Shown here: positions 30,139 through 50,488 of the stretch, piece after piece
How positions within the stretch are numbered: position 1 is the first letter of the stretch
Layout: each line of letters starts with the position of its first letter
Origin: Bacillus rhizoplanae
Lineage (GTDB): Bacteria; Bacillota; Bacilli; Bacillales; Bacillaceae_G
Assembly (NCBI RefSeq): GCF_917563915.1
Contig: NZ_CAKJTI010000003.1
Location: 186,001-250,000 of the forward strand
Direction of reading: 5' to 3'
DNA length: 64,000 nt
The notes under the pieces: generated by a model
Database searches by the model: none
Told to the model about the DNA's origin: nothing
What the model saw: the letters and a program-made list of their open reading frames with translations, nothing else
Position numbers and translations under genes: made by a program

Positions 30139-31470
30139 ATGAAGCAACACCCTCTTAAGATTGCATCTCTTGGTATTCAACATATGTTGGCAATGTATGC
30201 CGGGGCAGTTATCGTTCCGCTCATTGTTGGAGGCGGACTCGGATTAAATCAGGGTGAACTTACGTATTTAGTGTCAATTGATTTATTAATGTGCGGCATT
30301 GCAACTATTTTACAAGCATTAACGAATCGTTTTTTCGGTATTGGACTTCCAGTTGTGTTAGGTTGTACTTTTACAGCAGTTGGACCAATGATTGCTATTG
30401 GTAAGCAATATGGGGTATCCGCTGTGTATGGTTCTATTATTGCAGCAGGACTATTTGTTGTTTTATTTTCTAGTATGTTTGGAAAACTTGTAAAGCTGTT
30501 TCCACCAGTTGTTACTGGATCAGTTGTAACAGTTATTGGAGTTACATTAGTTCCAGTAGCGATTAATGACATGGCTGGCGGTGTAGGAAGTAAAGACTTC
30601 GGTAGTTTATCCAATTTAGCATTAGCATTCGGAGTGTTGTTATTTATTATCATTATGTACCGTTTTTTTGATGGTTTCATTCGCTCTATTTCTATTTTAT
30701 TAGGTTTATTATTTGGTACAGCAATTGCTGCGTTAATGGGGAAGGTAAGTTTACAAGCTGTAGCGGAAGCAGATTGGTTTCATGGTGTACAGCCATTTTA
30801 CTTTGGTACACCAACATTCGAATTAACACCTATCATTACAATGATTCTCGTTGCTTGTGTGGGAATTGTCGAAGCAACAGGAGTTTATTTCGCACTATCG
30901 GATATTTGTAACAAAAAAATTGGTGAAAAAGAATTGGCAAAAGGATATCGTGCAGAAGGAATTGCAATGATGTTAGGTGGTATTTTTAACGCATTTCCGT
31001 ATACGACATATTCACAAAATGTAGGTCTTGTGCAACTGACAGGTGTGCGCAATCGTGTTGTCATTTATACATGTGGCGGTATGTTAATTGTACTTGGATT
31101 TATTCCGAAGATTGCAGCATTAACAACAATTATTCCAACGCCAGTACTTGGCGGTGCAATGCTTGCAATGTTCGGAATGGTTATGGCATATGGCATTAAA
31201 ATGTTAAGCGCTGTTAACTTTGCAAAACAGGAAAACTTATTAATTGTTGCATGCTCTGTTGGAATTGGTCTTGGCGTAACAGTTGTGCCAACATTATTCT
31301 CGCAGCTTCCAGAGAGCGTTCGTATTTTAACAGATAACGGAATTGTATTAGGAAGTGCATCAGCAGTACTTTTAAATATTGTGTTTAATATGATTCCGCA
31401 AAAACAAACGAAAGTAAAAGAAGAGCAGGTTGCAAAGAGCGAAAAAAGCGTAGCAAACTTTGCAGGTTAA
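30139..31470 (+). CDS. pbuX: Xanthine permease, rebuilt across an integration junction
   Basis: NCS2 purine/H+ symporter of 443 aa with about 12-14 membrane helices (GIQHMLAMYAGAVIVPLIVGG; substrate region VGIVEATGVYFA). Codons from 290 on (31006-31470) have a second, diverged copy at 50463-50918. The two match over 26 bases, then mainly at protein level, with mostly third-position changes. The C-termini differ: this copy ends KSEKSVANFAG, the remnant ends MQSAVSEA. I infer that the present 3' part came with the integrated element and that the gene is a functional chimera. Confidence 0.93.
   Translation: MKQHPLKIASLGIQHMLAMYAGAVIVPLIVGGGLGLNQGELTYLVSIDLLMCGIATILQALTNRFFGIGLPVVLGCTFTAVGPMIAIGKQYGVSAVYGSIIAAGLFVVLFSSMFGKLVKLFPPVVTGSVVTVIGVTLVPVAINDMAGGVGSKDFGSLSNLALAFGVLLFIIIMYRFFDGFIRSISILLGLLFGTAIAALMGKVSLQAVAEADWFHGVQPFYFGTPTFELTPIITMILVACVGIVEATGVYFALSDICNKKIGEKELAKGYRAEGIAMMLGGIFNAFPYTTYSQNVGLVQLTGVRNRVVIYTCGGMLIVLGFIPKIAALTTIIPTPVLGGAMLAMFGMVMAYGIKMLSAVNFAKQENLLIVACSVGIGLGVTVVPTLFSQLPESVRILTDNGIVLGSASAVLLNIVFNMIPQKQTKVKEEQVAKSEKSVANFAG
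31006..31031 (+). other. attL core: left junction of the integrated element
   Basis: The 26 bases from ACATATTCACAAAATG to CTTGT are identical to 50463-50488. Identity stops exactly upstream (G versus C at the preceding base) and meets its first mismatch just downstream. The distance between copies is 19457 bases. Crossover inside this block by the adjacent tyrosine recombinase explains the duplicated pbuX 3' end. Confidence 0.8.
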
Positions 31471-31521
31471 ACGGATTTAATACGTTATCTTTATCCAACA
31501 TATTGCCGTCTAAAATATGTT

Positions 31522-31578
31522 AAAACGTCGTCTATATTTTCTTTCCTTTTGGAATGAATTTAGAGGTGGCGTTTTTTT
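31522..31578 (+). terminator. Terminator-like hairpin containing the integrase ribosome-binding site
   Basis: AAAACGTCGTCT (31522-31533) can pair with AGAGGTGGCGTTTT (31562-31575) using several G-T pairs, and a run of seven T follows. The 3' arm holds the GAGGTGG Shine-Dalgarno of the integrase, whose ATG is at 31579. It is the only terminator-like structure between pbuX and the integrase. Confidence 0.5.
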
Positions 31579-32592
31579 ATGAAAAGAAAAAGAATTAGTG
31601 TTCGAAAAGTATCCGAGAATAATGAAAAGAATTTGTATGATTTCGACTTTCAACAAGCATATGATTACTTTTTATCTGCCAAGAAATCGGAAGGATTGCG
31701 AGAAACAACATTAATTAGTTACGATGAACATTTTCGTTTCTTTACGAATTGGCTGAAAGAATTCCATAAGGATGTTCAGAAGATAAGTGATGTGAACTCT
31801 TTTCTGCTTCGTGAGTATATGAATTATATGAGAGAAGAACATATGAATATTAAAACAAAAGAGGCAGGTCTATCACCACAGACGATTAATGCAAGAATCC
31901 GCTTTTTAAAAAATTTTTATAACTTACTATTTAAGGAGGAGATAGTTGAAATAAATCCAGCAGAATCTGTTCGCTTTTTAAAAATTGATGAAACGCCATT
32001 TCAACCTTTGACAAAAGAAGAAATGAAGCGACTATTTAATATACCCGACGTGAAGAACTATCCGCAATTTAGAGACTATGTTTTAATGAATCTCCTTTAT
32101 GACAGTGGAATGAGAATTAACGAAGCAATAAATCTTGTCGTTTCAGAACTTGAGATTAAGGCAAAACGAATTATATTACCTGCAAGTAAAAATAAAACAC
32201 GTAAAATTAGAATCATTCCGTTGTCTAGCCATACTGTAAGGCTCTTAATGGAATTAATTAATGAGAATCAAGCACATTTTGAAAGTGAGTATGTGTTTTT
32301 AAATTGGTATGGTGAGCATTTATCGGAGGACACTTTCCGAAGAAATCTGAAACGATATGTTGAAAAGGCAGGTATAACGAAGCGGTTTTCTTGCCATGAT
32401 TTTCGTAGGCAATTTTGTACAGAATTTTTAGCAGAAGGCGGTTCGCTGTTCAGTTTGCAGTCAATCGTTGGTCATAGTCAAATCTCTACTACAAGGAAGT
32501 ATGTGAGGTTTGATGAACAAATGATTAAAAACCAACATGAACTATATAGCCCTGTAGTGAAATTGCGTCAGAAGTTTAAAAGGGGAAGGTAA
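31579..32592 (+). CDS. Tyrosine recombinase (integrase) of the pbuX element
   Basis: A 337-aa phage-type integrase. The N-terminal SAM-like core-binding domain (residues ~20-115) precedes the catalytic domain. Active residues are the first Arg in YDSGMRINEAINLV, the His-x-x-Arg of CHDFRRQFCTEFL, His in VGHSQISTTRKYV and the Tyr nucleophile there. It lies 108 bases after the rebuilt pbuX in the same direction, next to its attachment site, as expected for the enzyme that inserted the element. No excisionase is recognised. Confidence 0.9.
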   Translation: MKRKRISVRKVSENNEKNLYDFDFQQAYDYFLSAKKSEGLRETTLISYDEHFRFFTNWLKEFHKDVQKISDVNSFLLREYMNYMREEHMNIKTKEAGLSPQTINARIRFLKNFYNLLFKEEIVEINPAESVRFLKIDETPFQPLTKEEMKRLFNIPDVKNYPQFRDYVLMNLLYDSGMRINEAINLVVSELEIKAKRIILPASKNKTRKIRIIPLSSHTVRLLMELINENQAHFESEYVFLNWYGEHLSEDTFRRNLKRYVEKAGITKRFSCHDFRRQFCTEFLAEGGSLFSLQSIVGHSQISTTRKYVRFDEQMIKNQHELYSPVVKLRQKFKRGR

Positions 32593-33030
32593 AAGAATTT
32601 TGGTATTGAAAGCTGTACTGATTTTCTATTAGGCATTTGCTTTCTTAAGCATTGCTTAAAGTAAGAGTTTTTGAAGCGAAAGAAAAAGAACCGCGATGCC
32701 CACGAAGCTGATGGTTCTTCTTCTGATTCCAAAATTTCATAGTAGTCTTGTTAGGAAAAGGGAGGATAGCACCTTAATTTACGCGTATACGGTATTAAAA
32801 CCTCCGATACGAGAAAAATTTCTGTGAAACGCTGCTATATTAAGAAGGGAGGGGAAATTCCTCTATTTTCGTTACTGTTTTGAAGAGGAAGGGACTAAAG
32901 GAACATTGTGTTCAGCTAGTTAATAATCCAGGAATTTTCCATAGGTTCTTCGAGGGCAATTAGGCAAGATAAAAAACATGTTTCTGCTTGCAGAGAATAG
33001 GATTATGAAGGAATGTCGGATTTACAGATA
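32593..33030. other. Non-coding stretch, no gene seen
   Basis: About 440 bases after the integrase without an ORF that has a ribosome site. I see short purine-rich runs and stop codons in all frames. It could hold recombinase arm sites or a decayed gene; nothing specific is supported. Confidence 0.4.
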
Positions 33031-33033
33031 TAA

Positions 33034-33064
33034 ATAAAGAGAGCAGTGATGTACCTGCTCTCCT
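33034..33064 (-). terminator. Terminator of the Xre-type regulator gene
   Basis: GAGAGCAG and CTGCTCTC pair around GTACATCA; read on the minus strand the stem is followed by TTTATTTATA. Confidence 0.7.
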
Positions 33065-33088
33065 AGATTTGGGGAAGAGTAGATTTCT

Positions 33089-33760
33089 CTATACCTGTGT
33101 GTTATTTTGATTGTGCTTATTTATTTCTTCTTTCACTGCTTTTAATATTTTGTCCTTGCTTTCTTGACCGAGATTGGTTAAATCATTTTCAAATAAACCA
33201 ATAAAAAAGTTAAAGTTCTCTCTATCCTCTCTCAGGGAGGTTAACAAAGAATGTAGATTATTAATGACATTTTCGAAAGTTTGTATATTCTTATCGATGT
33301 TAAATGAAAGTTCCTCCTTAATCTCTTGATTTTTCTTTTTGAGTTGTTCATGTAAATCCATCATCCATTTACTTTCAAAGTTCTTTCTAGGGAGAGTTAA
33401 CTTATCTTGTTGATATTGTTCAACGTCACTAAGTTCTTCTTTCCGTTGTATCCAAATTTCTTCAATTTCCCTCGCTCTTCGTTCTTCCCAATCCGCTACT
33501 TCCTCTGCTTCAGCATTAATCTTCTCTGGGGATGCAATGTGATAAAAATTGTAGAGAAAATCTTCAATATTGTTCTCTTCCCATCCTAGGTGCTTCATTA
33601 TATCGTACGCAGTAGTGTAGTCAGGCTTCTTAATCAATCCTCTTTCAAGCTGCGAAATATATGTTTCAGCCTTCCCAACTAAGCGTGATAATTCTCTAGA
33701 ACCAAGCTTTCTCTTTGTTCTTAGTGCTTTAATATCTTTTCCGAAATTAGTGATACTCAA
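33089..33760 (-). CDS. Xre-family helix-turn-helix regulator
   Basis: A 223-aa protein. The N-terminal cro/C1-type HTH (residues ~5-60) reads LRTKRKLGSRELSRLVGKAETYISQLERG. The rest is long, charged and helical with likely coiled coil (residues ~95-220), so it probably multimerises. TTG at 33760 is the chosen start, with TGGAGGAATACAAC upstream; the ATG nine codons earlier lacks a site. It faces the operator-like palindrome at 33882 and probably controls the element's genes to the right. Confidence 0.8.
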   Translation of the reverse strand: MSITNFGKDIKALRTKRKLGSRELSRLVGKAETYISQLERGLIKKPDYTTAYDIMKHLGWEENNIEDFLYNFYHIASPEKINAEAEEVADWEERRAREIEEIWIQRKEELSDVEQYQQDKLTLPRKNFESKWMMDLHEQLKKKNQEIKEELSFNIDKNIQTFENVINNLHSLLTSLREDRENFNFFIGLFENDLTNLGQESKDKILKAVKEEINKHNQNNTQV

Positions 33761-33881
33761 AGTTGTATTCCTCCAATAGTGAAACAAAATGTGATTTATG
33801 TAAATTATAACATACTACAAAATGGCGATAAAGTGTAATTTGTAAAGTTTTTATAACTCAATTACGTAAATTTTATTTACA

Positions 33882-33903
33882 TTGTAGCATATTTATACTA
33901 CAA
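33882..33903. promoter_or_regulatory. Palindromic operator candidate
   Basis: TTGTAG, ten bases, CTACAA. A related half-site CATACTACAA lies at 33811-33820, next to the regulator's own start region. Paired sites between divergent genes fit binding by the Xre-type protein. Confidence 0.5.
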
Positions 33904-33977
33904 TAAATTTATTCTTGTAAAAGGGAAGCAATTGTATTTATAAAAAACAAAATCATTAAAAAGGATGGTTAATAATT

Positions 33978-34235
33978 ATGAACAAGCAACAAATCGAAAA
34001 AGATAACAATGAAATTTTAGAGTTTGTAATGGATTTACTTGAATCTACAGCATCAGATAGAGATGAATTTTACGAGTATCGTACATTATCTAGCAAAGGG
34101 GTAACTGTATTCACAAAAACAAGAGAGGAACATTTACAGTTTATGATTGAATTTATTGCAGAACAACTAAGTCAACATAATTACTTTTATGAAAAAGAGG
34201 GTATTGATAAATACAAGTGTAAATTAGAAAATTGA
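33978..34235 (+). CDS. Hypothetical 85-aa protein
   Basis: A small acidic helical protein (ILEFVMDLLESTASDRDEFYEY). ATG follows AAAGGATGG. It is the first gene right of the divergent regulatory region, a position often taken by excisionase or anti-repressor genes, but the sequence has no HTH that I can identify. Confidence 0.55.
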   Translation: MNKQQIEKDNNEILEFVMDLLESTASDRDEFYEYRTLSSKGVTVFTKTREEHLQFMIEFIAEQLSQHNYFYEKEGIDKYKCKLEN

Positions 34236-34447: not shown

Positions 34448-35764
34448 GTGTTAAACATATTGAATTACTTACAGAAATGTGAAAGCTTAAAAATAGTGGA
34501 TGCAACATGTGGAAAGGGTAAGACTTCTTGGGCAATTCAACGTATGAATGAAGCTAATGAATCAGAAAAGTTTATGTTTATCACTCCATTTTTATCTGAA
34601 GTCAAACGAATTAAAAACTCTGTTACAAATAGGAAATTCTCAGAACCTGATGTGGACAAAGACAACGTTACAAAACTGGACAGTTTAAAGAGATTAGTAA
34701 GGCTTGGAAAAGACATTGTCAGTACTCATGCGTTATTTTCGAATATTGATGAAGCGACATTAACTTTTATCAAATCTCATAACTATACCCTAATCTTAGA
34801 TGAGGTAGCAAATGTTATTGAACAGGCAAATATTTCGAAAGATGATATTAAATTATTGCTTGGGCATGATGAAAATGAACCATATGTTACGGTGAATGAG
34901 GATGGTTTTGTAACTTGGAAAAAAGAGAAATACGATGGAACATTCAAACGAATTGAAAGGTTAGCCAAGACTAACAATTTGATGATTTTCAATGATGCAG
35001 CAATGTTTTGGACGTTTCCTGTATCAGTATTTAAAGCATTTAAAAATGTAACCATACTCACATACATGTTTTGGGGGCAATCACAGCGGTATTATTTCAA
35101 AATGTTTGGAGTACCGATGCATTTCAATTCTGTGGAATTTGACCATGAAACTGGTCGTTATGAATTAATTCCATATGTTAGACCAACGCAAGAAAATGTG
35201 GCTCTCCTAAAGCAAAATATCAATATCTATTATCCAAATAGGTATAATGAGAAGAATATGAATGCTGTTGGAGATGAAAGAGGGGCATTCAGCAAAAGAT
35301 GGTTAACTGATAATATCAAGGACAAAGAAATGGTTAAGCTAATTCAAAGTCACGGATACAATTTCTATTGGAACAAATGCAAGGTTAAATCAGATAAAGT
35401 GATGTGGACTTGCCAAAAGGACTTCGAGAAAAAATTGACACCAAAGTCAGCAAAAAAACAGTTTGTTTCACTTACTGCGAGAGCAACAAATGACTATATC
35501 AACAAGGAAGTATGTATATATCTTGCCAATCGCTTTATGAATCCCGTTGAAAAGAAGTTCTTTCAATATCATAACGTCAATGTTGATGAGGATTTTTGGG
35601 CATTGTCAGAATTAATTCAATGGTTGTTCCGAAGCAGAGTAAGACGTGGAGAAACAATTGAATTGTATATCCCTTCAAGCAGAATGAGAGGCTTGTTAGA
35701 GAAGTATCTAAATGGAGAAGCAGTAGCATGGTTTGAAAAGGATGATGTCTTTGTTGTAGAGTGA
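34448..35764 (+). CDS. P-loop helicase-like protein of the element
   Basis: A 438-aa protein with Walker A ATCGKGKTS (residues 19-27) and Walker B LILDEV (115-120). A phage-helicase-like order follows with SLTARATNDY and a C-terminal EYL-type region; the WGQSQRYYFKMFG stretch is unusual. The DEV(A) box replaces DEAD/DEAH. It may be an SF2-type helicase or replication protein for the excised circle. Start is GTG at 34448 behind GAAAGTGA; a TTG at 34460 is possible. The family is uncertain. Confidence 0.6.
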   Translation: MLNILNYLQKCESLKIVDATCGKGKTSWAIQRMNEANESEKFMFITPFLSEVKRIKNSVTNRKFSEPDVDKDNVTKLDSLKRLVRLGKDIVSTHALFSNIDEATLTFIKSHNYTLILDEVANVIEQANISKDDIKLLLGHDENEPYVTVNEDGFVTWKKEKYDGTFKRIERLAKTNNLMIFNDAAMFWTFPVSVFKAFKNVTILTYMFWGQSQRYYFKMFGVPMHFNSVEFDHETGRYELIPYVRPTQENVALLKQNINIYYPNRYNEKNMNAVGDERGAFSKRWLTDNIKDKEMVKLIQSHGYNFYWNKCKVKSDKVMWTCQKDFEKKLTPKSAKKQFVSLTARATNDYINKEVCIYLANRFMNPVEKKFFQYHNVNVDEDFWALSELIQWLFRSRVRRGETIELYIPSSRMRGLLEKYLNGEAVAWFEKDDVFVVE

Positions 35765-37309: not shown

Positions 37310-39205
37310 ATGTCAAGGATTAAATTCTATTCTGAGTCTGATATGGCTTGTGGTTGGGAACTAGAAAAAATAGTAAAAAAAGTTAATAATGAGGTTATTG
37401 ACTCTGAATGGGGTATCACTGATTTATTAGACTTTCATAATATTTTAAAATATATAAACATTGAAGGCTTTAGTGACCATATCGTTAAAGAGACAAGTGT
37501 TGATATAAAAGCTTATGAGAAAAAAATAAAACAAAAAATCGGTATCTTCATGGGCTGTTACAAGGATGTCTTCCTCAACCTATATGATGAAGTTGACTTG
37601 GATACCAAAGATGATTTCTTTGAAGTTCTTGAAGTTTACAATTTATATCAAAAAATTGAAATTAATGATTTTAGACGATTTCTTGAAAAGGGAAATATAC
37701 ATATTTATATAGTACTCAAGTTTAAGAGATTGACTGAGTATTTTAATGAAGCAGTTAAAGATGTGTTATTATCTGACTCTAAGAATGCAGAGACAATTCT
37801 ATCAAAGTATCTAAAAGAAAATGATTTATATTTGCCACCATCTTTGAATGAAACAGATATATTAAATTTAATTGATGAATATATTGATTCACCACTAGTT
37901 AATATAAATGTATTGAGAAAAATCATTAACTTCCCAACAAATAAGGGGTTAAGTATATCTGATAAAATCAAATTGCATGCCAAGAGGAAAGCTAAAGAAG
38001 AGGAAGAAAAAATTTTTAATAACGGAATAGGTATTGAATCGGGAGTAATGATTTCTTATCCGCAGGAACAAGATGAAGCTATATTAATTACTATGGATGG
38101 TAGAACGGCAGACATCAAGGTAAGTCGAAAGTGGATTGAAGAAAATATTGATTATCCTACACTTTGGAATAATTTTATTTATCTATTCGGATTTACGGAT
38201 TTGAAGATGAGATTAGCAATCGACTCTAAAAAAAGTGAAAGCAGTACTCTAGAGTCAGTACTTAGACCACAAGCAGAACATTTGTATTACCAATCATCCT
38301 TTTTTGATTTCAAAGAAATGTTGTCTAATGCAGAGATATATAGTTATGTTAATGTATTAAATGTTCTTGGTGTAAGATTGGAAGAAATGATTGAATGGTT
38401 TTTTGATGCATATATGAAAGAAGAATTTCAGATTAATGATTTCATCGTTAAAATGCCTTCGAGTGAAGCATCATATTTCGAAAAGTGCAGAACTATTCTT
38501 CCTGAGATAGATAGAATTTTTAAACAGTATAATACTCTGATTGAAGATGGGGTGATAGACCAGGAATTAATTCAAATGTCATCTTCAAGTTTTAAAAATA
38601 AAGATATTAAGTCATTTAATAAAAAGAAGTATGTTTACTCTTCGAGTGACTGGTATAAAACAGCTTCATATTTATTATTTTCTGACCAGAGTGGCATATT
38701 TTATTTACCAAATAAAGAAGATAAATATAAGAATTTTTTTAACTTGATGATTGCTGAAAAATTAAATAGAAGTGATTTTGAAGAGTATCAACTGAAAGGA
38801 ATGCAATGGTTATTCGATAATAACTTGATTTGTGAAAATAACATGGGCTACTTAGAGTTTGTTGACCAAAGAGTCATATATATTCTTAAGGAGCTGTATT
38901 ATAAAGATGTAATGAGCTATTGGCATTATTCTAAGGATACACAAGTATTGTTAGAGGAGTTAAGTACTCGTAATCTTGTTGATTTTGAAAATAGCCTGTT
39001 TTCAAGAAATGAACAAGATTATCTTGACTATTATCTCAATAAATCAAAATTTACCAATGGTTATGATATTCGAAATAAATACTTACATGGAACAAATACT
39101 AATGACGAGAAACAATACGAGTCAGATTACTACTTGATTCTTAAACTGTTTGTCATAATAGTCATTAAAATAAATGATGACTTATGTATTAAAGAGGATA
39201 GATGA
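37310..39205 (+). CDS. 631-aa protein with C-terminal HEPN-like motif
   Basis: A large, cytosolic, very AT-rich gene standing alone with its own terminator. Near the C-terminus is RNKYLH (residues 588-593), the R-x4-H arrangement of HEPN ribonucleases, followed by a long hydrophobic helix (YYLILKLFVIIVIKIND), as in DUF4209-type and abortive-infection proteins. No nucleotide-binding motif is seen in the first 500 residues. AAAGGAGAACAT precedes ATG. Defence against phage is an inference from the motif and from its place in a mobile element. Confidence 0.65.
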   Translation: MSRIKFYSESDMACGWELEKIVKKVNNEVIDSEWGITDLLDFHNILKYINIEGFSDHIVKETSVDIKAYEKKIKQKIGIFMGCYKDVFLNLYDEVDLDTKDDFFEVLEVYNLYQKIEINDFRRFLEKGNIHIYIVLKFKRLTEYFNEAVKDVLLSDSKNAETILSKYLKENDLYLPPSLNETDILNLIDEYIDSPLVNINVLRKIINFPTNKGLSISDKIKLHAKRKAKEEEEKIFNNGIGIESGVMISYPQEQDEAILITMDGRTADIKVSRKWIEENIDYPTLWNNFIYLFGFTDLKMRLAIDSKKSESSTLESVLRPQAEHLYYQSSFFDFKEMLSNAEIYSYVNVLNVLGVRLEEMIEWFFDAYMKEEFQINDFIVKMPSSEASYFEKCRTILPEIDRIFKQYNTLIEDGVIDQELIQMSSSSFKNKDIKSFNKKKYVYSSSDWYKTASYLLFSDQSGIFYLPNKEDKYKNFFNLMIAEKLNRSDFEEYQLKGMQWLFDNNLICENNMGYLEFVDQRVIYILKELYYKDVMSYWHYSKDTQVLLEELSTRNLVDFENSLFSRNEQDYLDYYLNKSKFTNGYDIRNKYLHGTNTNDEKQYESDYYLILKLFVIIVIKINDDLCIKEDR

Positions 39206-39595: not shown

Positions 39596-39667
39596 CCAAG
39601 ATATCCGCTATAATTTAATTTCCATATACAACACAGTTAAGGAATCCAAAGAGGCTCTTAACGATGA
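39596..39667 (+). repeat. Promoter-leader repeat, copy 1
   Basis: About 70 bases matching 40167-40236 with roughly nine differences: ATCCGCTATAAT (a -10 box), CATATACA, CACAGTTAAGGA, TCCAA(A/G)GAGG and CTTAAC just before ATG. In this copy the ATG opens a 12-codon frame that doubles as a hairpin followed by seven T. Confidence 0.7.
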
Positions 39668-39799
39668 AAAGGGTAGCTACTACAATGCTATCCTTTTTTT
39701 GATACAATCGTAATAAAATGTTGATTTTATTAGGTATTTGTTCTATTAAAAACATATCTCTAAACAAGTGACACATAATGTAATCACTTGTTCAGCAAA

Positions 39800-40168
39800 T
39801 TAATAGACTTTAAGAGCATTAGAACGTTTAACTTCCTTTTTAAATTCCTTAGCAATTGGCTTTCGTGACTGCATGAGAATCTCGTATAGACCATCTTCTG
39901 TTAAGAACCACTGTTCTGTATTCTCTCGAAGTCCACCGTGACCTTGCTTATAACCATTAGTTATAGTCAAGGTAGATTTGATTTTCTCTTCTTCATCTAT
40001 GGAGTTTAGCATTTTTGATGTATTCGAATGCTCAATCCAATTAGCCACATCTTTTGCTAAAAAGAGGGGATTGTCAGCATCCCCATATATTCTAAATTGC
40101 TTTCCAAGCACTTCTCTATAAATAATCCTTCTTTTTGAACTGCAAAATCTGAAACATAGAAATACCAA
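39800..40168 (-). pseudogene. Remnant of a Bro-N domain antirepressor
   Basis: Residues ~18-115 match the Bro-N fold of phage antirepressors: REVLGKQFRIYG, NPLFLAKDVANWIEHSN, WFLTEDGLYEILMQSRKPIAKEFKKEV. The protein ends at once after this domain (RSNALKVY), without the usual C-terminal half. The first 17 residues look out of frame: the +1 frame gives an ATG and FQILQF before a stop. I read it as a truncated, probably inactive copy. Confidence 0.65.
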
Positions 40169-40236
40169 GATTATCCGCTATAATGAAATTACCATATACA
40201 GCACAGTTAAGGACTCCAAGGAGGTTCTTAACAATG
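40167..40236 (+). repeat. Promoter-leader repeat, copy 2, with integrase-like stub
   Basis: Second copy of the 39596 repeat. Its ATG at 40234 opens a 13-codon frame (MEGSVKKDKKTGK, then TGA). That is how the arm-binding domain of many phage integrases begins, so this may be the torn 5' end of another integrase gene. The Bro-N remnant lies between the two copies. Confidence 0.55.
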
Positions 40237-40492
40237 GAAGGAAGCGTCAAAAAAGATAAGAAAACAGGAAAATGAATAATTGAAAATTACGTATGCAATC
40301 ACTATCTTCTAACGTGGTGTATTTTTTAATTGATAATATGTAAAAAGGAAAGAATCCGATAATTAGGGACTTTTTGTGAAACTTTCATTTTTAAAGATAT
40401 GGTATAATTTTCATAGTTTATAAAGTTATGGAGAAGTTGAAAAATTATAAAATCTGAAAGACTAGATAGAAAATATAGAGAGGATTCAAGTA

Positions 40493-40768
40493 ATGGGGCA
40501 ATTTCAAAGTAATTTTCAAATGGCAGGACAAATTGCTACTCAAATGGGAACGGCTGCTAACACAATTCAAAGTGCGACAAATAGCCATATAACTAAGGCG
40601 GAACGTACAACGTTATCTGTTAACTACAAAGCGCAAGAAGCAAATCAACAAGCTTTAGGGTTAACGAAACAATTTTATGATGCCTTTCAACAAGGAATTA
40701 ACAACATTCATTCTGTAGCAAAGGATTTTGAGCTTATGGATAACGAACTTCAACAAACTTTTCGCTGA
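40493..40768 (+). CDS. Small helical partner of an LXG effector (TIGR04197/DUF3130-like)
   Basis: A 91-aa WXG100-like helical-hairpin protein (MGQFQSNFQMAGQIATQMG ... NYKAQEANQQAL). Such proteins precede LXG effectors and help target them to the type VII secretion apparatus. AGAGAGGATTCAAGTA precedes ATG. It is the first gene of a five- or six-gene operon that ends with a DUF4176-like gene. Confidence 0.8.
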   Translation: MGQFQSNFQMAGQIATQMGTAANTIQSATNSHITKAERTTLSVNYKAQEANQQALGLTKQFYDAFQQGINNIHSVAKDFELMDNELQQTFR

Positions 40769-40812
40769 AATGACAACCTACGCAAATATAAAATAATAGT
40801 AGGAGGAAAAAG

Positions 40813-41175
40813 ATGAGCCAAGATATTCAAAAATAAATTAATCAGTTAAACGAAAAATTAAGAAGTCTATCAGAAGAACAATATCAAAATCAATACGCTA
40901 TGCAAAAACAAGGACAAACGGAAACAGATTTTTATGAATGGAAAAGTCAAAGTTATTGTCTATTTGAACGAATATTAGAAACTTGGCATAACGATAGAGA
41001 ACTAGGAAAATTCTTTCATAATTTGCGTCAAGATGTATGTCAACTCGAGCGAAAACTTACTCACGAATTAGAAGAGCAAAAAGAAACGTTGCTAAAAGAA
41101 AAACAAAACCTTAGTAATCTCGAAAATGACTTTATTTATCAACGACAAAGTTTAGCACGGGAGGTGAATTTATGA
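40813..41175 (+). pseudogene. DUF5082/YwqH-like LXG partner with a premature stop
   Basis: A 120-codon frame opens at ATG 40813, with a strong AGGAGGAAAAAG, but has TAA at codon 8 (40834-40836). A single C-to-T change from CAA would create it. Downstream the frame stays open (ISxLNEKLRSLSEEQYQNQY-like helix, FYEWKSQSYCLFERILE, LERKLTHELEEQKETLLKE). Restart at ATG 40900 is possible but lacks a ribosome site. The second chaperone is therefore probably lost or reduced. Confidence 0.75.
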
Positions 41176-42395
41176 GTTTAAATATGTATCTAGGAGAAGT
41201 ACAAGCTCAATCACAAAGTATGAATGCTTTTTGCGCTGCAACTATTCAAGGAATGGAACAAGCCATCAGTTCGATTGATGCTTTTGTTGGTGATGCTGTT
41301 CTGCAAGGACAAACTTACAATAGCGCAAAAACATTCTTTGCACAAACCTTTCGTCCTTTAGCTCAAGGAATTATTTATTTGTGTGAAGAATTAATTCGTC
41401 AAAATAATGCTTTTCCAAATAACTTTCAATCACAAGTCGCTTCAACAGATGTTATCGAACAAGAAATACTAGCACAAATTCGAGAGATTGAGAGAATGAT
41501 AGCAACGATGGAAGCAATGAGTGAAAACATGCCAGGCACGCAGACGATGATACAGATTTACTATACTATGAAACGGAAGCTTCAAGAAAAGTTAGAACAT
41601 CTGTATAAATTCAATTATACTTCTAGTAGTAATTATGATACAGCATTTCAATTAGCTGCCAGCATCGCTCAAGGTCTTGCGGAAGTTCAAAGTGGGAAAG
41701 GTTTTAATGCCGCCAGCGGTACATTTAGTAATCAAGGGTTGAACATGGAGTGGACGGCATCTATTCAAAAAATTACAGAAGATAAAGCTCGTGAAGCCGA
41801 GAAACTTGCTAATTTAAAAAAGGAACCTAATGATAAAACTAAAATTCTCAAAGGTTCAGCAGAAGGTGCTAAAGAGAATCGTCTTGGTGGAAAGTTGGAA
41901 GGTACAGTAGTAGATGCAACTACTGACATTGGAAGAGGAACAGCAGTCAACAATAAACTGTTGACTGGAAATTTAGAAGCTAACTTCGGCAAAAATAAAG
42001 AGGCTATAATAGAAGATATCTATACAGGTGGTTTGTTTGGCTTTAAAGCGGAAGCTTCATTTTTAGAAAGTAATATTGAAAAAGAAGAGTTTATTGGAGA
42101 GAAAACTACAGTAACGCAAAAATTTCAAAATGTTAGTAGTGCATTTGGGATTGATGAATATAGTTTTAAAGCAGACGCTTCATATACAGCACACAAGTAT
42201 GAAGTGTTACTTGAAAAAATTGATATACCTGACATTATTCCTTATTTTAGTGACAATGACTTTACTGTACGCTTTGAATTTGGAATTGGTAATGTTGGTT
42301 TCAAGCTTCATGCGGGGGCTGAAAATGGATTTTATACGCCTCTGTATAAAGACTTTGCTGTTGGATTTTTTGTAAAACCAGAGAAAAAGGAGTAA
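41172..42395 (+). CDS. LXG-domain type VII secretion effector
   Basis: A 407-aa protein whose N-terminal ~200 residues form the helical LXG secretion domain (MSLNMYLGEVQAQSQSMN, then FAQTFRPLAQGIIYLCEELI and SSSNYDTAFQLAASIAQGLAEVQSGKGF). Residues ~240-407 form a separate beta-rich region with repeated (G/S)FKA(E/D)AS-type motifs (GFKAEASF, SFKADASY, GFKLHAGA). It ends GFFVKPEKKE. I do not recognise a toxin family there. ATG overlaps the preceding stop (ATGA). Target unknown; antibacterial activity is inferred from the LXG class. Confidence 0.82.
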   Translation: MSLNMYLGEVQAQSQSMNAFCAATIQGMEQAISSIDAFVGDAVLQGQTYNSAKTFFAQTFRPLAQGIIYLCEELIRQNNAFPNNFQSQVASTDVIEQEILAQIREIERMIATMEAMSENMPGTQTMIQIYYTMKRKLQEKLEHLYKFNYTSSSNYDTAFQLAASIAQGLAEVQSGKGFNAASGTFSNQGLNMEWTASIQKITEDKAREAEKLANLKKEPNDKTKILKGSAEGAKENRLGGKLEGTVVDATTDIGRGTAVNNKLLTGNLEANFGKNKEAIIEDIYTGGLFGFKAEASFLESNIEKEEFIGEKTTVTQKFQNVSSAFGIDEYSFKADASYTAHKYEVLLEKIDIPDIIPYFSDNDFTVRFEFGIGNVGFKLHAGAENGFYTPLYKDFAVGFFVKPEKKE

Positions 42396-42399
42396 ATAT

Positions 42400-42591
42400 A
42401 TGCGTCCGTTCAAACAAATGAGAACTATATATTTAATAACAGTACCTATTATTGCTATTCTTTCGTTGCTTTTTCCACAATCATTAGGAGACCGTATTCT
42501 TACGTTTTTCTGCATACTTATTTTTGGCGGATTAGCAGTAGGCTTTACTTATTTACTAGACTTTATTGGGAGAAAATTAAAAAATAAATGA
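42400..42591 (+). CDS. Two-helix membrane protein, candidate immunity protein
   Basis: A 63-aa protein with two membrane segments (IYLITVPIIAILSLLF and ILTFFCILIFGGLAVGFTYLLDFI) and a basic end. It starts four bases after the LXG gene, the usual position of the cognate immunity gene. A membrane location suggests that the effector may attack membranes or cell-envelope targets; this is inference. Confidence 0.65.
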   Translation: MRPFKQMRTIYLITVPIIAILSLLFPQSLGDRILTFFCILIFGGLAVGFTYLLDFIGRKLKNK

Positions 42592-42607
42592 GAAGAACGA
42601 AGTTAAT

Positions 42608-42794
42608 ATGTTCAAATCAGCAAAAATTATAATAATCATAGCAATTGTGATTACGATTTTGCTAGACTAATAGCCCATTTTCAGCAAAAGAAAAAATAAT
42701 ATATACATTGGGCGTGGCTATTTATGGTGTAATTGTTCTAGGTGGAATTACTCTAATAGATTATATTATCAAGAAGAAAAAGGAGAATAAATAA
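42608..42794 (+). pseudogene. Frameshifted second copy of the immunity-like gene
   Basis: ATG 42608 gives MFKSAKIIIIIAIVITILLD and a stop at 42668; another frame then continues FSAKEKIIYTLGVAIYG ... LIDYIIKKKKENK to 42794. The second half aligns in layout with the preceding gene (SLGDRILTFFCILIFGG ... LLDFIGRKLKNK). One lost or gained base near 42665-42680 would restore it. Confidence 0.65.
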
Positions 42795-43043
42795 ATGAAA
42801 CTACTACCTATTGGTTCAGTTGTTAAATTAGAAGATATAGAACCAATCGTTATGATTATCGGAAGAATGGTTGTTTCAGCAGATAAGCGTGATTTTGACT
42901 ATGTAGGTGTTCCTTACCCTGTTGGTTATTTAGGTGATGAAAGAGTATTATGCTTTAATCATGATAAGATTGTAGAAGAGTTACATAGAGGCTATATGAC
43001 TGAAAGTGAATTGGTGCTACGTGAGAAATTAGTAGAGCTGTAA
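42795..43043 (+). CDS. DUF4176-like protein of the LXG operon
   Basis: An 82-aa protein (MKLLPIGSVVKLEDIEPIVMIIGRM ... DYVGVPYPVGYL, in parts). This is the DUF4176 pattern repeatedly found beside LXG effectors. Its ATG abuts the stop of the frameshifted gene, with AAAAAGGAG upstream. The role is unknown. A terminator (43206) follows after 160 bases. Confidence 0.75.
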   Translation: MKLLPIGSVVKLEDIEPIVMIIGRMVVSADKRDFDYVGVPYPVGYLGDERVLCFNHDKIVEELHRGYMTESELVLREKLVEL

Positions 43044-45530: not shown

Positions 45531-45575
45531 GCATTCGATAAAATAAGAGTATCAAATAACAAGGTGGAATAAATC

Positions 45576-46178
45576 ATGGATAACAAAGAGTTCGGATATG
45601 TACGAGTAAGTAGTAAAGACCAAAACGAAGCAAGACAATTGGAAAGCATGTATGCTCTTGGAATTGATGAACGTGATATACATATCGATAAGCAAAGCGG
45701 CAAAGACTTTAATAGACCTCAATACCAAGCTTTGAAAATGCGTTTGCGTAAAGGAGATACATTATACATTCATTCATTAGATAGACTAGGTCGTAACAAA
45801 GAGATGATTCTTAATGAGTGGAAGGATATCACACAGAACATCAAAGCACATATTGTCGTAATTGATATGCCATTATTGGATACACGCAAATACAATGATT
45901 CAATCGGCTCTTTTGTAGCTGACTTGGTATTACAAGTATTATCATGGGTTGCTGAAGAAGAGAGAGTAAAGATTAAGACTCGTCAAGCTGAAGGCATAGC
46001 TTTAGCAAAAGCACAGGGTAAACACCTAGGAAGACCTAAAACATCTATTACCTCTGAATTCGAACATGCTTATAAGCAATGGAAAGCAGGAGATATCACT
46101 GCAGTTGAAGCAATGAAGCAATCAAGTATGACTAAGGCTACATTCTATCGCAGGGTTAAGGAATATGAAACGAACTAA
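45576..46178 (+). CDS. Serine recombinase (resolvase/invertase family)
   Basis: A 200-aa protein. The catalytic N-terminus is FGYVRVSSKDQN (nucleophile Ser), with LYIHSLDRLGRN holding the conserved Arg residues, then the long E helix (EEERVKIKTRQAEGIALAKAQG). The C-terminal helix-turn-helix is VEAMKQSSMTKATFYRRVK. ACAAGGTGG precedes ATG. It probably resolves multimers of the element at the res site just upstream; plasmid or transposon ancestry is likely. Confidence 0.9.
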   Translation: MDNKEFGYVRVSSKDQNEARQLESMYALGIDERDIHIDKQSGKDFNRPQYQALKMRLRKGDTLYIHSLDRLGRNKEMILNEWKDITQNIKAHIVVIDMPLLDTRKYNDSIGSFVADLVLQVLSWVAEEERVKIKTRQAEGIALAKAQGKHLGRPKTSITSEFEHAYKQWKAGDITAVEAMKQSSMTKATFYRRVKEYETN

Positions 46179-46179
46179 A

Positions 46180-46385: not shown

Positions 46386-47603
46386 TTGAGAATTGATATT
46401 TATTTTCATGATTATAAAGATAAAAGTGAATCCAACAGGACTTTGGAAGTTCTGGAGTTATTCCTAAACACACATGTAATCATGAATAATTATAGTAGTG
46501 TGTACAATAGTGTATCATTTAAATTTTTGAATAATCCACCGAAGAAAAGGGAGGCAAAAATACTTATGCCTTATGGGATTCATCCAGAGGTGGAGATTCT
46601 CTCTGATTTTAGAGATAATGGGAAATTATGTGTAGAGACATTTCATCATGCGCTAGGTTTAATACAAGAAGCAATTCACCGTATACCACATGCCCCAGCT
46701 AAAAAAGAATTTGATTTTGATGTTAAAGGACTTTTGAGAGATATTAGTACTGCTGCTAAAGATGCCCCTCATTCCAAAGATGCAATCAAACATTTGGGGG
46801 ATAACAAAAAGCAACTCACTATACAAAATCGTATGAATCACAAATTGAGGATGGTTGAAAATTTTAGGGAGAATCCGAGACCTTTAGATACAAGGCTTAT
46901 AGGGGTTCGTGTCCTTAGCAACAGATATCGATTTCATGATGATGAGGATATTTATTTCTATCAGAATATGTATGCAATCATCTTTTCTGATGTTCTCCGA
47001 AGGTACGATATCCGTTTACCTAGCTATAAGGAAATTTATATCGATTTAGTAAATTCTTTAGAAGAAGCCATTGATATTAGCACTAGTAAGGATGACTGGT
47101 TTCAATACACCCATGCAATATTAGATTACACACGATTTAAACAATCTTCACAAGAAACGAAAGAACAATTATTATTAGATTGTTTATTTGAAGGACTAAG
47201 ATTTATTACAGATTTCGACCACTTAGAAAAGGACAAAATTGAAAGTGTAATTAAGTATATCCAAAAGCATAAACTGCAAACACCGCTTATTTATGCGATA
47301 AAAGAAAATGAAGAATACGAGGTGAAAATTCAATATAAAGTAACCAGAGAAAATATCATCGGAAATTATGTAAAAGCCAGTTATAATTTACACATTTTCC
47401 AAAAGGCAACAGGAGAAGAGCGTGTAATTCCTCTTGGGGTCTTCGAAACATTTAATGTTCCTTATGTTTTAGGCAATATTCGTCTTACTAAGAAACAAGT
47501 CACAATTAGGGGAAGAACAGGATTAAGAGCCGAAATTTATCGTTCAAGCGAAAAAGCACCTAGTGAGTACAAATTTCAGTTTCATGAACTGTTTGTGAAT
47601 TAA
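46386..47603 (+). CDS. Unrecognised 405-aa protein
   Basis: The protein has a mixed N-terminal domain (RIDIYFHDYK, then FKFLNNPPKKREAKILMPYG). A helical middle has many His and Arg residues (HHALGLIQEAIHRIPHAP ... IGVRVLSNRYRFHDDED), and a beta-rich C-terminal part reads VTIRGRTGLRAEIYRS. No P-loop, signal or membrane segment is seen. TTG at 46386 follows GGAACGGGG; GTG at 46368 is an alternative. It is followed by the DUF4259-like gene after 70 bases; a toxin-antitoxin or defence pair is conceivable but unproved. Confidence 0.6.
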   Translation: MRIDIYFHDYKDKSESNRTLEVLELFLNTHVIMNNYSSVYNSVSFKFLNNPPKKREAKILMPYGIHPEVEILSDFRDNGKLCVETFHHALGLIQEAIHRIPHAPAKKEFDFDVKGLLRDISTAAKDAPHSKDAIKHLGDNKKQLTIQNRMNHKLRMVENFRENPRPLDTRLIGVRVLSNRYRFHDDEDIYFYQNMYAIIFSDVLRRYDIRLPSYKEIYIDLVNSLEEAIDISTSKDDWFQYTHAILDYTRFKQSSQETKEQLLLDCLFEGLRFITDFDHLEKDKIESVIKYIQKHKLQTPLIYAIKENEEYEVKIQYKVTRENIIGNYVKASYNLHIFQKATGEERVIPLGVFETFNVPYVLGNIRLTKKQVTIRGRTGLRAEIYRSSEKAPSEYKFQFHELFVN

Positions 47604-47673
47604 TGTTGAAGGTATATGCTAACTGTTAATCATCAGTTGTTAAAAATTTAAAGACATTTTGGAGGAGTAAAAA

Positions 47674-48417
47674 ATGGGTGCTTGGGGAGTTGCGATATTA
47701 TCCGATGATGTAGCCGAAGATGTTAGCTTTAGATATAAGGACTTATTAGGTGATAATTATTCGAATGAAGAAGCAAGTAAAATAGTGATTGAAGAATTTC
47801 AGAATGAGTTAGATGATGAAGAAATCACGACTTTTTGGTTATCATTTGCTTTAATACAATGGAAACTAGGAAGACTTCAAGAGCAAGTAAAAAATAAAGC
47901 ACTTCAAATTATTGATAGTGGTGCTGACCTCGAACGTTGGGAAGAAGACCCTAAATTAAAGAAGAAGCGTGAAGCGGTTCTTCTTAAACTAAAAGAGCAA
48001 TTAAATTCTCCACAACCAAAAGCTAATAAAGTACCAAAGAGGTTTGTAACTGATACAGATTTAAAAGCAGGTGATGCCATTAGCTATCAATTACTGTCAG
48101 GAGATTATATTATTCTTAAGGTCATTGGTATTATTGAACAATGGACTGGAGATAAATATCCTCTTTTTGAAATATGTGATTGGCAAGGTAAAGTAATTCC
48201 TTCTAAAGAAAAAATTAATCAATTAGAATTAAAAAATGGGAATCAAGAGTTGAAAGCATTATCTCTTTTCCCTGCAGGTAAAAGAGATAACCCCACTAAA
48301 AGAATTAAAGCGGTAGCAGAAGAAGTAAGAATAATATTGGATATGGAAGCACCGTCTACCTTATTAACTTGGAAAGAATTTGATGATGAATTAAAGAAAT
48401 TTTACCATTTTGATTAG
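47674..48417 (+). CDS. DUF4259-like protein
   Basis: The N-terminal ~110 residues carry the DUF4259 pattern MGAWGVAILSDDVAEDV, a YKDLLG helix and TTFWLSFALIQWKLGRL. A second domain (residues ~125-247, PKRFVTDTDLKAGDAISYQLLSG) looks like a small beta barrel, giving a two-domain form. Proteins of the first type often occur singly near toxin loci as presumed immunity factors. TTGGAGGAGTAAAA precedes ATG. Confidence 0.7.
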   Translation: MGAWGVAILSDDVAEDVSFRYKDLLGDNYSNEEASKIVIEEFQNELDDEEITTFWLSFALIQWKLGRLQEQVKNKALQIIDSGADLERWEEDPKLKKKREAVLLKLKEQLNSPQPKANKVPKRFVTDTDLKAGDAISYQLLSGDYIILKVIGIIEQWTGDKYPLFEICDWQGKVIPSKEKINQLELKNGNQELKALSLFPAGKRDNPTKRIKAVAEEVRIILDMEAPSTLLTWKEFDDELKKFYHFD

Positions 48418-48462
48418 TCTTTAATACTCCCAAAAATCCATAAGAAGTTAGGAGTAATTATA

Positions 48463-48492
48463 AGGGACTCCCTATGGGGTCTCTTTTCATTT
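48463..48492 (+). terminator. DUF4259-like gene terminator
   Basis: GGGACTCCC-TATGGGGTCTC followed by TTTTCATTTG. About 50 bases around it resemble the resolvase terminator region. Confidence 0.7.
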
Positions 48493-48639
48493 GCAATGAT
48501 ATGGGGGGATTTTTCGTATTTTTATTCCATACATTTATGGAATAAGTGTATAGTAGGTAAAAAACACCTTAAGAAAAAATTATTGTTTCCAAACGAAGCT
48601 AAATGCTACGTCCTTCAGAAAATTCGTAAATTCTTATGA

Positions 48640-48828
48640 TTAATCTTGATTCCACTCTTTGCTACAGTCTGGACATTTCCATTTAAGAATTCGGTCGGCT
48701 TCAATGCTTGCGATACCAATTTTTCTTGTAAAATGAGTTGCACCATATGCTTTTTGTGATTGTTTTGGTATAGGTTCTCCTTGCAAATCAGCATTGCAAT
48801 ACGGGCAGAATTCTTTGCTATTTCCCAT
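48640..48828 (-). CDS. Small zinc-ribbon protein
   Basis: A 62-aa protein with two Cys pairs, FCPYCNADL near the start and WKCPDCSKEW at the end, forming a predicted zinc ribbon. AGAAGGAGTGATTTG precedes ATG at 48828. Similar small proteins occur in phages and islands; function unknown. Confidence 0.6.
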   Translation of the reverse strand: MGNSKEFCPYCNADLQGEPIPKQSQKAYGATHFTRKIGIASIEADRILKWKCPDCSKEWNQD

Positions 48829-49006
48829 CAAATCACTCCTTCTAGCTAAACCCTAATCTTTAATGTAAATATAACATATTTAAGTAAAGGGGAAGTATTT
48901 AATATGAAATATTCGCAATAATTAAAATATATATATTATATAATGCTGCATTGATGTAAAATGATTATATGGTGTTAAATATTACATAGTTAATTTTGGA
49001 GGGATT

Positions 49007-50152
49007 ATGTTGGACTTCAGAAATAATATACAAAAGCTTTCATTGCAAGTACTTGAGAGAAAGAGCCATATAACAAATGAAGAGATGACAAAACAAGCAT
49101 TAATCATCCCTTTTATCCAAAAACTAGGATATGATGTTTTTAATCCGCTAGAAGTTAGACCAGAATTTACAGCAGACTTTGGTATTAAAAAAGGTGAAAA
49201 AGTCGATTATGCTATTTTTAAGAATGGTGAACCTATTATCCTTGTTGAAGCAAAATCAGTCACAGAAAATTTAAAAAAGCATGATTCGCAATTGTCTCGC
49301 TATTTCAATGCAATTCCAGAAGTGAAAATAGGTATTTTAACTAATGGTGTAGAATATAAGTTTTTTACTGATTTAACAATGGATAACATGATGGATAACA
49401 CACCATTTTTCACTTTCTCAATGGATAGTGTGACTAACTTAGATATTGAAACGATTGAAAATTTCACGAAAGAGAATTTTGATGCTACAGAGATTGTTAA
49501 ATTTGCAGAAGAACTGATTTATATGACAAATTTGAATGCCAATATTAAGGAACTATTTAAGAATCCTTCTGATGATTTTTTGCGGTTTTTAATTAAAGAT
49601 TTTAGTTCAACTAGAATTACAAGTAATGTATTGGAAAGATTTCGACCGATAGTCCAAAAAGCAATCAATAACACTTTGCTGGAAATTATTAGTGAGGGAT
49701 TGTCACCAAGACCAGCAGAGGTATTAATAGACAAAGAAAAAGAAGAAGAAGCAGAGATGGAATCCGAGGTATCGACAACAAAAATAGTACCTACTACTAC
49801 GGCGGAAGAGTTAAAGGCATTTGATATAATTAAGAAGACGTTAGAAGATAACGGACGTAATATTGAAAATTTAAAGCACAAAGATACTCTGAACTATTTC
49901 AATGTGATGAATCGAGTAATTACAAAATGGTTTATCCGTGTGAATTTAGACCAAGCAGTAAAATATATTTACACCAGACTTGAACCCGAAGTAGCCAGAG
50001 AATTATGCCCTAATTTTGAAGTAGTAGAAGGAATTAAATCTACATGTAATAGCCGAATTATAATAAATGAAGTTGAAGATTTAGAGGAAATGAAAGAATT
50101 AATTATTACTTGCTTTGATGAAGTGACTGAACAATTGCCATTAAATAAGTAG
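49007..50152 (+). CDS. Orphan HsdR-N-like nuclease-domain protein
   Basis: A 381-aa protein whose first ~170 residues match the N-terminal nuclease domain of type I restriction HsdR and its orphan relatives. Catalytic candidates are Asp67, Glu81 and Lys83 in VDYAIFKNG and ILVEAKS (PD-(D/E)xK fold). FIQKLGYDVFNPLEV and ILTNGVEYKFF are also typical. No helicase, specificity or methylase gene is nearby. The C-terminal region (~250-381) is acidic and unassigned. TTTGGAGGGATT precedes ATG. Antiphage or DNA-processing roles are inference. Confidence 0.72.
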   Translation: MLDFRNNIQKLSLQVLERKSHITNEEMTKQALIIPFIQKLGYDVFNPLEVRPEFTADFGIKKGEKVDYAIFKNGEPIILVEAKSVTENLKKHDSQLSRYFNAIPEVKIGILTNGVEYKFFTDLTMDNMMDNTPFFTFSMDSVTNLDIETIENFTKENFDATEIVKFAEELIYMTNLNANIKELFKNPSDDFLRFLIKDFSSTRITSNVLERFRPIVQKAINNTLLEIISEGLSPRPAEVLIDKEKEEEAEMESEVSTTKIVPTTTAEELKAFDIIKKTLEDNGRNIENLKHKDTLNYFNVMNRVITKWFIRVNLDQAVKYIYTRLEPEVARELCPNFEVVEGIKSTCNSRIIINEVEDLEEMKELIITCFDEVTEQLPLNK

Positions 50153-50157
50153 TAGCC

Positions 50158-50196
50158 ATAAAAAGTGCTAGGGATAGTCCTAGTGCTTTTTTTACT
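50158..50196. terminator. Terminator after the HsdR-N-like gene
   Basis: AAAAAGTGCTAGG and CCTAGTGCTTTTTTT form a symmetric hairpin. Confidence 0.85.
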
Positions 50197-50322
50197 TTTA
50201 TTGTTAAGGTCTGCTTTGATTTAGTATCTATTAGATACTCTATTTAATGGGGATAGGACTTACAATAATTATATTGGTAAAGGCTAAAGTAACATAGGTA
50301 ATGAAAAATAATGGCAATTGTA

Positions 50323-50352
50323 TTGCCGAGTATTGAAAAAATTTATTATAAT
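50323..50352 (+). promoter_or_regulatory. Outward-facing promoter near the right end of the element
   Basis: TTGCCG, an 18-base spacer and TATAAT point towards the right junction. In the excised circle this would lie before the pbuX 3' segment and the integrase. No gene is seen from 50197 to 50462. Confidence 0.4.
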
Positions 50353-50462
50353 AGAAATAACCAAATAAGGAAAGAAAACATAGACGACAATTAAATATGT
50401 TGGATGTTCAATATTTATGAAATGCTGATATAAGAGTAATATGAGTCTGTTTTGTCATTTGC

Positions 50463-50488
50463 ACATATTCACAAAATGTAGGTCTTGT
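50463..50488 (+). other. attR core: right junction of the integrated element
   Basis: Identical to 31006-31031. The base before it differs from the left copy (C versus G), and so does the second base after CTTGT. Everything to the right is the host's own pbuX end. Confidence 0.8.

Follow-up and report, generated by a model that had tools for sequence, protein, structure and literature searches.

An element that appears to integrate in the xanthine permease gene pbuX and to rebuild the gene it interrupts

What has placed two copies of the 3′ end of the xanthine permease gene pbuX 19 kb apart, one completing an open gene and the other standing alone? The question is raised by a stretch of 64,000 nucleotides (nt) from Bacillus rhizoplanae (contig NZ_CAKJTI010000003.1, positions 186,001 to 250,000), which we call the window. 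The original prediction, made from this sequence, was that an element had integrated at a conserved stretch of coding sequence inside pbuX, bringing codons 290-443 of its own and leaving an intact chimeric gene. By our analysis it is very probable that the element uses a tyrosine recombinase of its own to enter pbuX at a core, carries codons 290 to stop and leaves an intact chimera.

Results

The pbuX locus and the ends of the element

The pbuX frame (30139-31470) is open throughout, and its product of 443 amino acids (aa) matches the NCBIfam model TIGR03173 pbuX over the whole length with 557.6 bits, in agreement with the predicted intact chimera. The element begins at 31006, which is nt 868 of the gene and the first base of codon 290. 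From this point the 3′ end of pbuX is indeed present twice, as had been proposed: 31006-31435 and 50463-50892 differ at 18 of 430 nt (95.8% identity), with 19,457 bp from start to start, and chance cannot account for a repeat of this length and identity. Its first 26 bases (31006-31031 and 50463-50488) are identical, and mismatches directly outside on either side confirm that the flanks differ at once. Past the repeat the C-terminal tails diverge, the left ending in VAKSEKSVANFAG and the right in VAMQSAVSEA, and the last ~12 codons have no match. A further inverted repeat of 35 nt (31514-31548 and 50367-50401, 83% identity) lies just inside both element ends.

The open reading frame (ORF) upstream of pbuX we take to be xpt, xanthine phosphoribosyltransferase, by its place in the operon. 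The right copy is followed at once by a hairpin with 19-bp perfect arms that looks like the native pbuX terminator, and a DUF418 gene is the neighbour on this side (Table 1). Relatives of this gene lie beyond pbuX in three other loci (L001, L147 and L148). As in the window, pbuX is followed by a DUF418 gene in two genomes of the genus Ectobacillus, there at a distance of ~1.2 kb. An automatic annotation would probably call pbuX an intact gene and label the far copy a pseudogene.

The integrase ATG (31579) stands 108 bases past the left pbuX stop codon, where the original prediction had placed a tyrosine recombinase. An alignment of seven integrases gives R179, H273, R276 and H299 together with the tyrosine of an RKY motif, residues that fit the catalytic pattern of the family. 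Against the NCBIfam equivalogs the protein stays below both cut-offs, with 159.7 bits for XerC (cut-off 335.15) and 162 bits for XerD (cut-off 329.6).

Recurrence of the integrase behind pbuX

A search for this integrase next to pbuX had been proposed as a check. Integrases 54-62% identical to that of the window were found in seven further genomes, and in all seven the gene lies directly behind pbuX. Three came from a draw of 397 genomes of one order (E-value up to 1e-75) and four more from the family of genome G316 (193 genomes, E-value up to 1e-60); the families of G178 and G157 yielded no further integrase at an E-value up to 1e-75. Together the seven genomes span three families (193, 24 and 34 genomes). 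A fourth (19 genomes) is represented by Ectobacillus funiculus (L001), which has a remnant: similar intergenic sequence and the first integrase codons, standing before a DUF418 gene. At this site (L001:5600-6400) the start of xpt runs directly into an apparent pbuX tail, judged by eye, and the salvage operon seems to have been deleted. By contrast, none of 16 weaker integrases (31-46% identity) lies beside pbuX, although one of them, L064, has only 186 bp of upstream sequence. Occurrence is patchy: in the genus of G507 at least 4 of 61 genomes have such an integrase, in that of G316 at least 1 of 36.

An intact right copy is present in the window, in G316 (37.5 kb away), in G507 (10 kb) and in G493 (on another contig). 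Its first base is nt 868 of pbuX in three of these (window, G507, G493) and nt 867 in the fourth, G316; the edge agrees to within one base across all four. The blocks of exact identity reach 405 bp in G507 and 447 bp in G316; the two copies in G493 mismatch at nt 872. In the frame that we read, the pbuX gene of G507 (from C55) has an in-frame stop after 57 codons, so that this occupied gene may have lost its function independently of the element.

Viral contigs held no relative of the integrase, of an intergenic 23-mer or of the pbuX 3′ part. Among plasmid and phage records every integrase match listed was below 60% identity, and matches to the pbuX 3′ part were at most 70% identical. The element DNA matched one 70-bp plasmid stretch and no phage, three plasmid records matched 1-2% of the left flank, and the xpt-pbuX DNA had no phage match. 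Among the 397 genomes of the order, the best match to the xpt-pbuX DNA of the window was 73% identical; a draw from the class gave nothing at an E-value up to 1e-240, a bar that even the 73% match does not reach.

Empty sites in relatives

The original prediction also implied that relatives lacking the element would have a single pbuX joined to the native right flank. We looked at relatives of G507 and G316, and at all 12 loci examined pbuX is single and uninterrupted and can be aligned with the joined flanks over the full length (the one full-length match besides G507 and 11 of 14 besides G316). For G507, the left flank joined to the right copy aligns over its whole length with G517 at 95.4%; for G316, the joined flanks align with 11 relatives at 88.2-94.8%. 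Each of the 12 genomes has one match to its query, and none of the loci examined showed the case that would have spoken for duplication, a second copy with no element. G517 has as its native tail that of the G507 right copy, and therefore the G507 left tail belongs to the element. By analogy, we regard the left-copy tail in the window as probably element-borne and the right-copy tail as native.

Paired motifs at both ends

A motif matrix built from nine left ends (pbuX stop to int) revealed the same motif pair, inverted, in all four intact right ends, with scores of 20.9-30.1. The offset of the pair from the core is nearly fixed, at 56, 57, 56 and 56 bp in the window, G316, G507 and G493. The null distribution excludes the ends; an earlier null, whose pool contained the ends themselves, was dropped. 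Of 785,430 positions outside the ends, in six stretches, none reaches the scores of the right ends, the highest being 15.3. We read these pairs as putative arm sites of the integrase.

The left motifs overlap a predicted hairpin in the int leader (31506-31582 in the window, and in relatives), the 3′ arm of which takes in the Shine-Dalgarno region in most leaders. This is a folding prediction made without a shuffled control. A T-run is present in five of nine leaders, and a terminator scan of the leader found none under the rules of the scan. It is possible that the hairpin would hold down translation of int.

The probable crossover core and related integrases

Where within the repeat does the crossover occur? 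Repeats could be resolved for 10 of 11 weaker integrases examined (of the 16), and they mark other targets. Three elements have repeats at tRNA-Arg(CCT) genes (47 bp in G032, 47 bp in G258, 59 bp in G545), one at a tRNA-Val gene (G531, 50 bp) and six at the 3′ end of a gene that we take from the look of its sequence to be of HesB/IscA type (69-124 bp; G440, G461, G019, G102, G553, G556). The eleventh, G013, has no repeat in the surroundings examined. In the three tRNA-Arg elements the anticodon loop, TTCCTAA, begins 4, 3 and 3 nt into the repeat. Three of the six HesB/IscA-type repeats start exactly at TTCACTA, TTCACTA and TTTACAA, and three further upstream. In pbuX the corresponding heptamer is TTCNCAA, and in three of the four elements the repeat has five or six shared bases ahead of it. 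Because the repeat edges at pbuX, tRNA-Arg and the HesB/IscA-type gene converge on similar heptamers, TTCNCAA is probably the site of crossover in pbuX. A match of at least 5/7 to TTCCTAA occurs at 578 of 36,232 pbuX positions (1.6%), and seven of the eight occupied genes reach it at the heptamer.

In an integrase tree (FastTree) the pbuX clade has a support of 1.000, and two tRNA-Arg integrases form its sister group with 0.983. In the simplest history, integrases that used the tRNA moved to a gene in which a similar heptamer occurs. We give about even chances to the view that this group of integrases switched from a tRNA to a protein gene because some of its codons are like the anticodon loop. 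Gln293, with which the heptamer ends, opens the NAT signature motif (Gln-Asn-x-Gly, as defined in PMC5972032). How far this motif lies from the stop codon sets the length of the carried segment.

A neighbouring integrase clade (L060-L063, L065, L067, L010) sits behind the HesB/IscA-type gene, presumably for an iron-sulphur carrier. In its six resolved elements (stretches L111-L116 and L150-L158) the 3′ end of the gene is carried and the repeats are 8-41 kb apart; this gene is a second protein-gene target among the related integrases. In G545 (stretch L117-L119) two tRNA-Arg 3′ copies lie at distances of 16.7 and 33.3 kb from the tRNA gene, an arrangement that tandem integration of two elements would give.

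The carried segment resembles the host allele

Over an interior of 365 nt the left and right copies are 95.9% identical in the window, 100% in G316, 100% in G507 and 98.9% in G493, whereas identity between genomes is 67.7-76.7%. In a tree, left and right copies pair as sisters in each of the four cases. In G507, over 390 nt, left and right show 0 differences from each other and 10 each from the empty relative, after which the tails diverge abruptly. The left and right tails differ in three of the four elements.

Content of the element

The 26 ORFs of the window element were scanned in part, 19 against Pfam and 10 against PHROGs; the seven outside the Pfam scan are at most 79 aa long. No terminase, portal, capsid or lysis gene was found among the ORFs scanned. 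The element was also considered as an integrative and conjugative element and rejected, since the 19 ORFs scanned against Pfam include no relaxase or type IV secretion gene. As for a phage satellite (PICI-like), the element has a phage-type regulator, an antirepressor fragment and the phrog_2467 and phrog_4225 proteins, and no packaging gene was recognised among the 10 ORFs scanned with PHROGs. Ten proteins of the G316 element were scanned and included terminase subunits, portal, major head, endolysin and a regulator, which makes it a complete-looking prophage.

The integrase is the common part of all elements compared. The resolvase of the window is 42% and 46% identical to genes in the G316 and G493 stretches; beyond it, one more gene is common to G511, G518 and G493 (77-83%), and there are two weak pairs besides. 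The remaining cargo (Table 1) includes a cluster of LXG, DUF3958 and DUF4176 genes, which we presume to be linked to type VII secretion. A 68-nt direct repeat (87%) at 39602-40239 flanks a short BRO-N antirepressor-like gene (39800-40168). Outside the element, the window holds two tandem 6S RNA genes (58277-58668; Rfam RF00013, 91.7 and 99 bits).

Table 1. Features of the pbuX locus and of the integrated element, in window coordinates
Feature	Position	Strand	Evidence or remark
Purine riboswitch of the xpt-pbuX operon, host	29334..29435	+	Rfam RF00167, 93.1 bits
xpt (presumed), host	29544..30137	+	ORF; protein matches ORF upstream of pbuX in G316, G178, G157
pbuX codons 1-289, host part of chimera	30139..31005	+	
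pbuX codons 290-443, element-carried, attL side, with probable element-specific C-terminal tail	31006..31470	+	
26-bp identity block	31006..31031	+	Probable 7-bp overlap TTCACAA at 31011-31017
Putative left arm-type motif 1 (TATCCAACATATT)	31492..31504	+	
Putative left arm-type motif 2 (ACGTCGTCTATATTTTCTTT)	31525..31544	+	Within 5′ side of predicted hairpin
Tyrosine recombinase (integrase), 337 aa	31579..32592	+	Pfam PF00589, 5.6e-38
Helix-turn-helix regulator	33089..33787	-	PF01381, 3.1e-07
Helicase-like phage-type protein	34448..35764	+	phrog_2467, 6.7e-67; ResIII, 9.8e-05
Candidate anti-phage defence protein PDC-S56	37310..39205	+	PADLOC PDLC05039, 9.8e-239
Cluster: LXG-domain protein (41172-42395), DUF3958, DUF4176	40493..43043	+	PF04740, 4.9e-11; PF13125, 9.9e-17; PF13780, 1.2e-25
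Serine recombinase, resolvase-type	45576..46178	+	PF00239, 8e-26
HSDR_N / endonuclease-like protein	49007..50152	+	phrog_4225, 3.4e-109; PF04313, 2e-15
Putative right arm-type motif pair, inverted relative to left	50371..50406	-	56 bp from identity block
Native pbuX 3′ end, attR side, without 5′ part	50463..50918	+	
Hairpin, 19-bp perfect arms, directly after right copy	50917..50957	.	Repeat search
DUF418 gene, native right-hand neighbour	50933..52102	-	PF04235, 1.4e-39

Discussion

Taken as integration, the locus would have formed as follows. The tyrosine recombinase of the element would cross over at a short core in pbuX, around Tyr291-Ser292-Gln293, where the Gln-Asn-x-Gly motif begins. The element would carry codons 290 to stop next to its attachment site, and a single crossover would then leave an intact chimeric pbuX on the left and a headless native 3′ end on the right. 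This account draws on what is shown here: the anatomy of the locus, the recurrence at the same place, the linkage to one integrase, the empty sites for two elements and the motif pairs at both ends. Cross-family recurrence, a prophage at the site, a segment that tracks the host, integrase relatives at tRNA genes and the 35-nt inverted repeat go beyond the original prediction.

Two other routes to this arrangement have to be weighed against integration by the element's own enzyme. Two similar 3′ parts, the right one without its 5′ part, would also result if pbuX had been duplicated in tandem, or if one copy were a decayed paralogue, and unrelated genes had later come to lie between the copies. 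Yet the left edge is the same in the window, G316, G507 and G493, the adjoining integrases belong to one clade, matching motif pairs stand at both ends and 12 relatives of two elements have a single uninterrupted pbuX; we dropped simple duplication as refuted by the recurrence at the same site, and give this origin almost no weight. Homologous recombination by RecA through the carried segment, with the integrase unused at pbuX, is easier to entertain, as 405-447 identical bases are long enough for it and the mosaic pattern of identity suggests that the copies recombine to some extent. It leaves unexplained, however, why integrases of one clade are present, why the motif distance at the right end is nearly fixed and why the repeat edges agree with those of related integrases at tRNA genes. 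We consider it very unlikely as the sole route, although both routes could operate.

A number of observations weigh against the integration account or its details. The right copy is truncated in G511 and G157, and G178 and G518 have none in the genome (E-value up to 1e-8), so several of these elements are decayed. The empty sites come from relatives of G507 and G316 rather than from the species of the window, and no excised circle or attP junction was seen; we think it rather more likely than not that the element is still able to excise. The motif score takes its spacing from the right ends, and the motifs lie further apart in the left ends. As regards the core and its history, G440 and G461 have the same element end, so that the two TTCACTA starts are not independent. 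The pbuX heptamer matches TTCCTAA at 5/7 positions in six of the eight occupied genes, at 6/7 in G507 and at only 4/7 in G493, and of the three tRNA-Arg integrases one (L068) is not part of the sister group. The core is conserved, yet it ranks 88th among 1,270 pbuX windows, and the idea that it is the most conserved part of the gene was rejected on this rank.

Why does the carried segment resemble the host so closely? We favour, with some reserve, the explanation that it has been homogenised with the host allele by homologous recombination, which would keep the attachment site matched. The interiors of G507 and G493 are identical or nearly so while their tails are abruptly different, an arrangement that needs a junction made by recombination, in G507 between the element and host copies. 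Against this, the carried segment of the window differs by 4%, its tract of low mismatch is only suggestive (permutation p 0.010, with a statistic chosen after the data were seen), and in G316, as in the truncated copy of G511, the identity continues beyond the stop codon, so that acquisition within a species would be enough to explain both. Rebuilding might instead occur without homogenisation, the elements moving within a species and the carried allele being host-like by common descent. Phages often have a narrow host range, the window copy has its 4% difference to offer here too, and G316, identical right through the stop codon, could have been acquired recently; recombination junctions such as those of G507 and G493 would not be expected. 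This alternative is less probable than homogenisation but has to be taken seriously. For the window, transfer between sister species could also explain the likeness of carried and host parts.

A broader and more tentative proposal is a self-updating site. Recombination in the host would keep overwriting the carried homology tract, so that core and permease stay host-like while integrase, tail and cargo diverge, and the lineage would have come from tRNA-Arg through the likeness of the Tyr-Ser-Gln codons to the anticodon loop; we judge it possible, with the balance tilted against it. If the carried segment is overwritten by the host, this has a bearing on the way in which mobile elements and their sites stay matched as hosts diverge. 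The related integrases at tRNA genes and at two protein genes, with similar core heptamers, also form a natural series in which target switching is directly testable.

Integration that rebuilds its target gene is already known. What is new here is pbuX as a site, within the open-licence literature searched, the carried segment of ~460 nt and its probable homogenisation. We found no paper in that literature naming pbuX or xanthine permease as an integration site; the tables of the TIGER survey (10.1093/nar/gkaa156) may list pbuX. The main text of PMC12884075 mentions neither pbuX nor xanthine, and PMC12504390 and PMC2885750 are, in their accessible portions, unrelated to integration in pbuX.

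The closest known case of rebuilding is prophage e14 in icd of E. coli K-12, where, according to the available excerpt of PMC11148124, 165 bp are duplicated after codon 362 with 12 exchanges. Judged by that excerpt, both systems integrate inside a coding gene, carry its 3′ end, and leave an intact chimera with a 3′ fragment on the far side. The pbuX elements differ in gene and host, in a segment of ~460 nt and in an interior up to 100% identical to the host. Internal gene sites have also been surveyed with TIGER, and the portion of PMC10111431 at hand describes attP replacement sequences that keep the gene functional, with identity blocks up to ~250 bp. The integrases at pbuX likewise bring replacement sequence, but their exact blocks are 405 (G507) and 447 bp (G316). 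A transporter gene thus joins the protein-coding sites rebuilt by elements, with a carried part beyond the ~250 bp given in that portion. The sister-clade integrases at tRNA-Arg(CCT) share with the pbuX elements a related integrase, a carried 3′ part of the target and a similar core heptamer, whereas they target a tRNA gene and their carried part is about a tenth as long (blocks of 47 bp, or 59 bp in the less close G545). Finally, the likeness extends to temperate phages: the G316 prophage has the same site and integrase clade as the window element, which, unlike it, has no virion genes among the proteins scanned.

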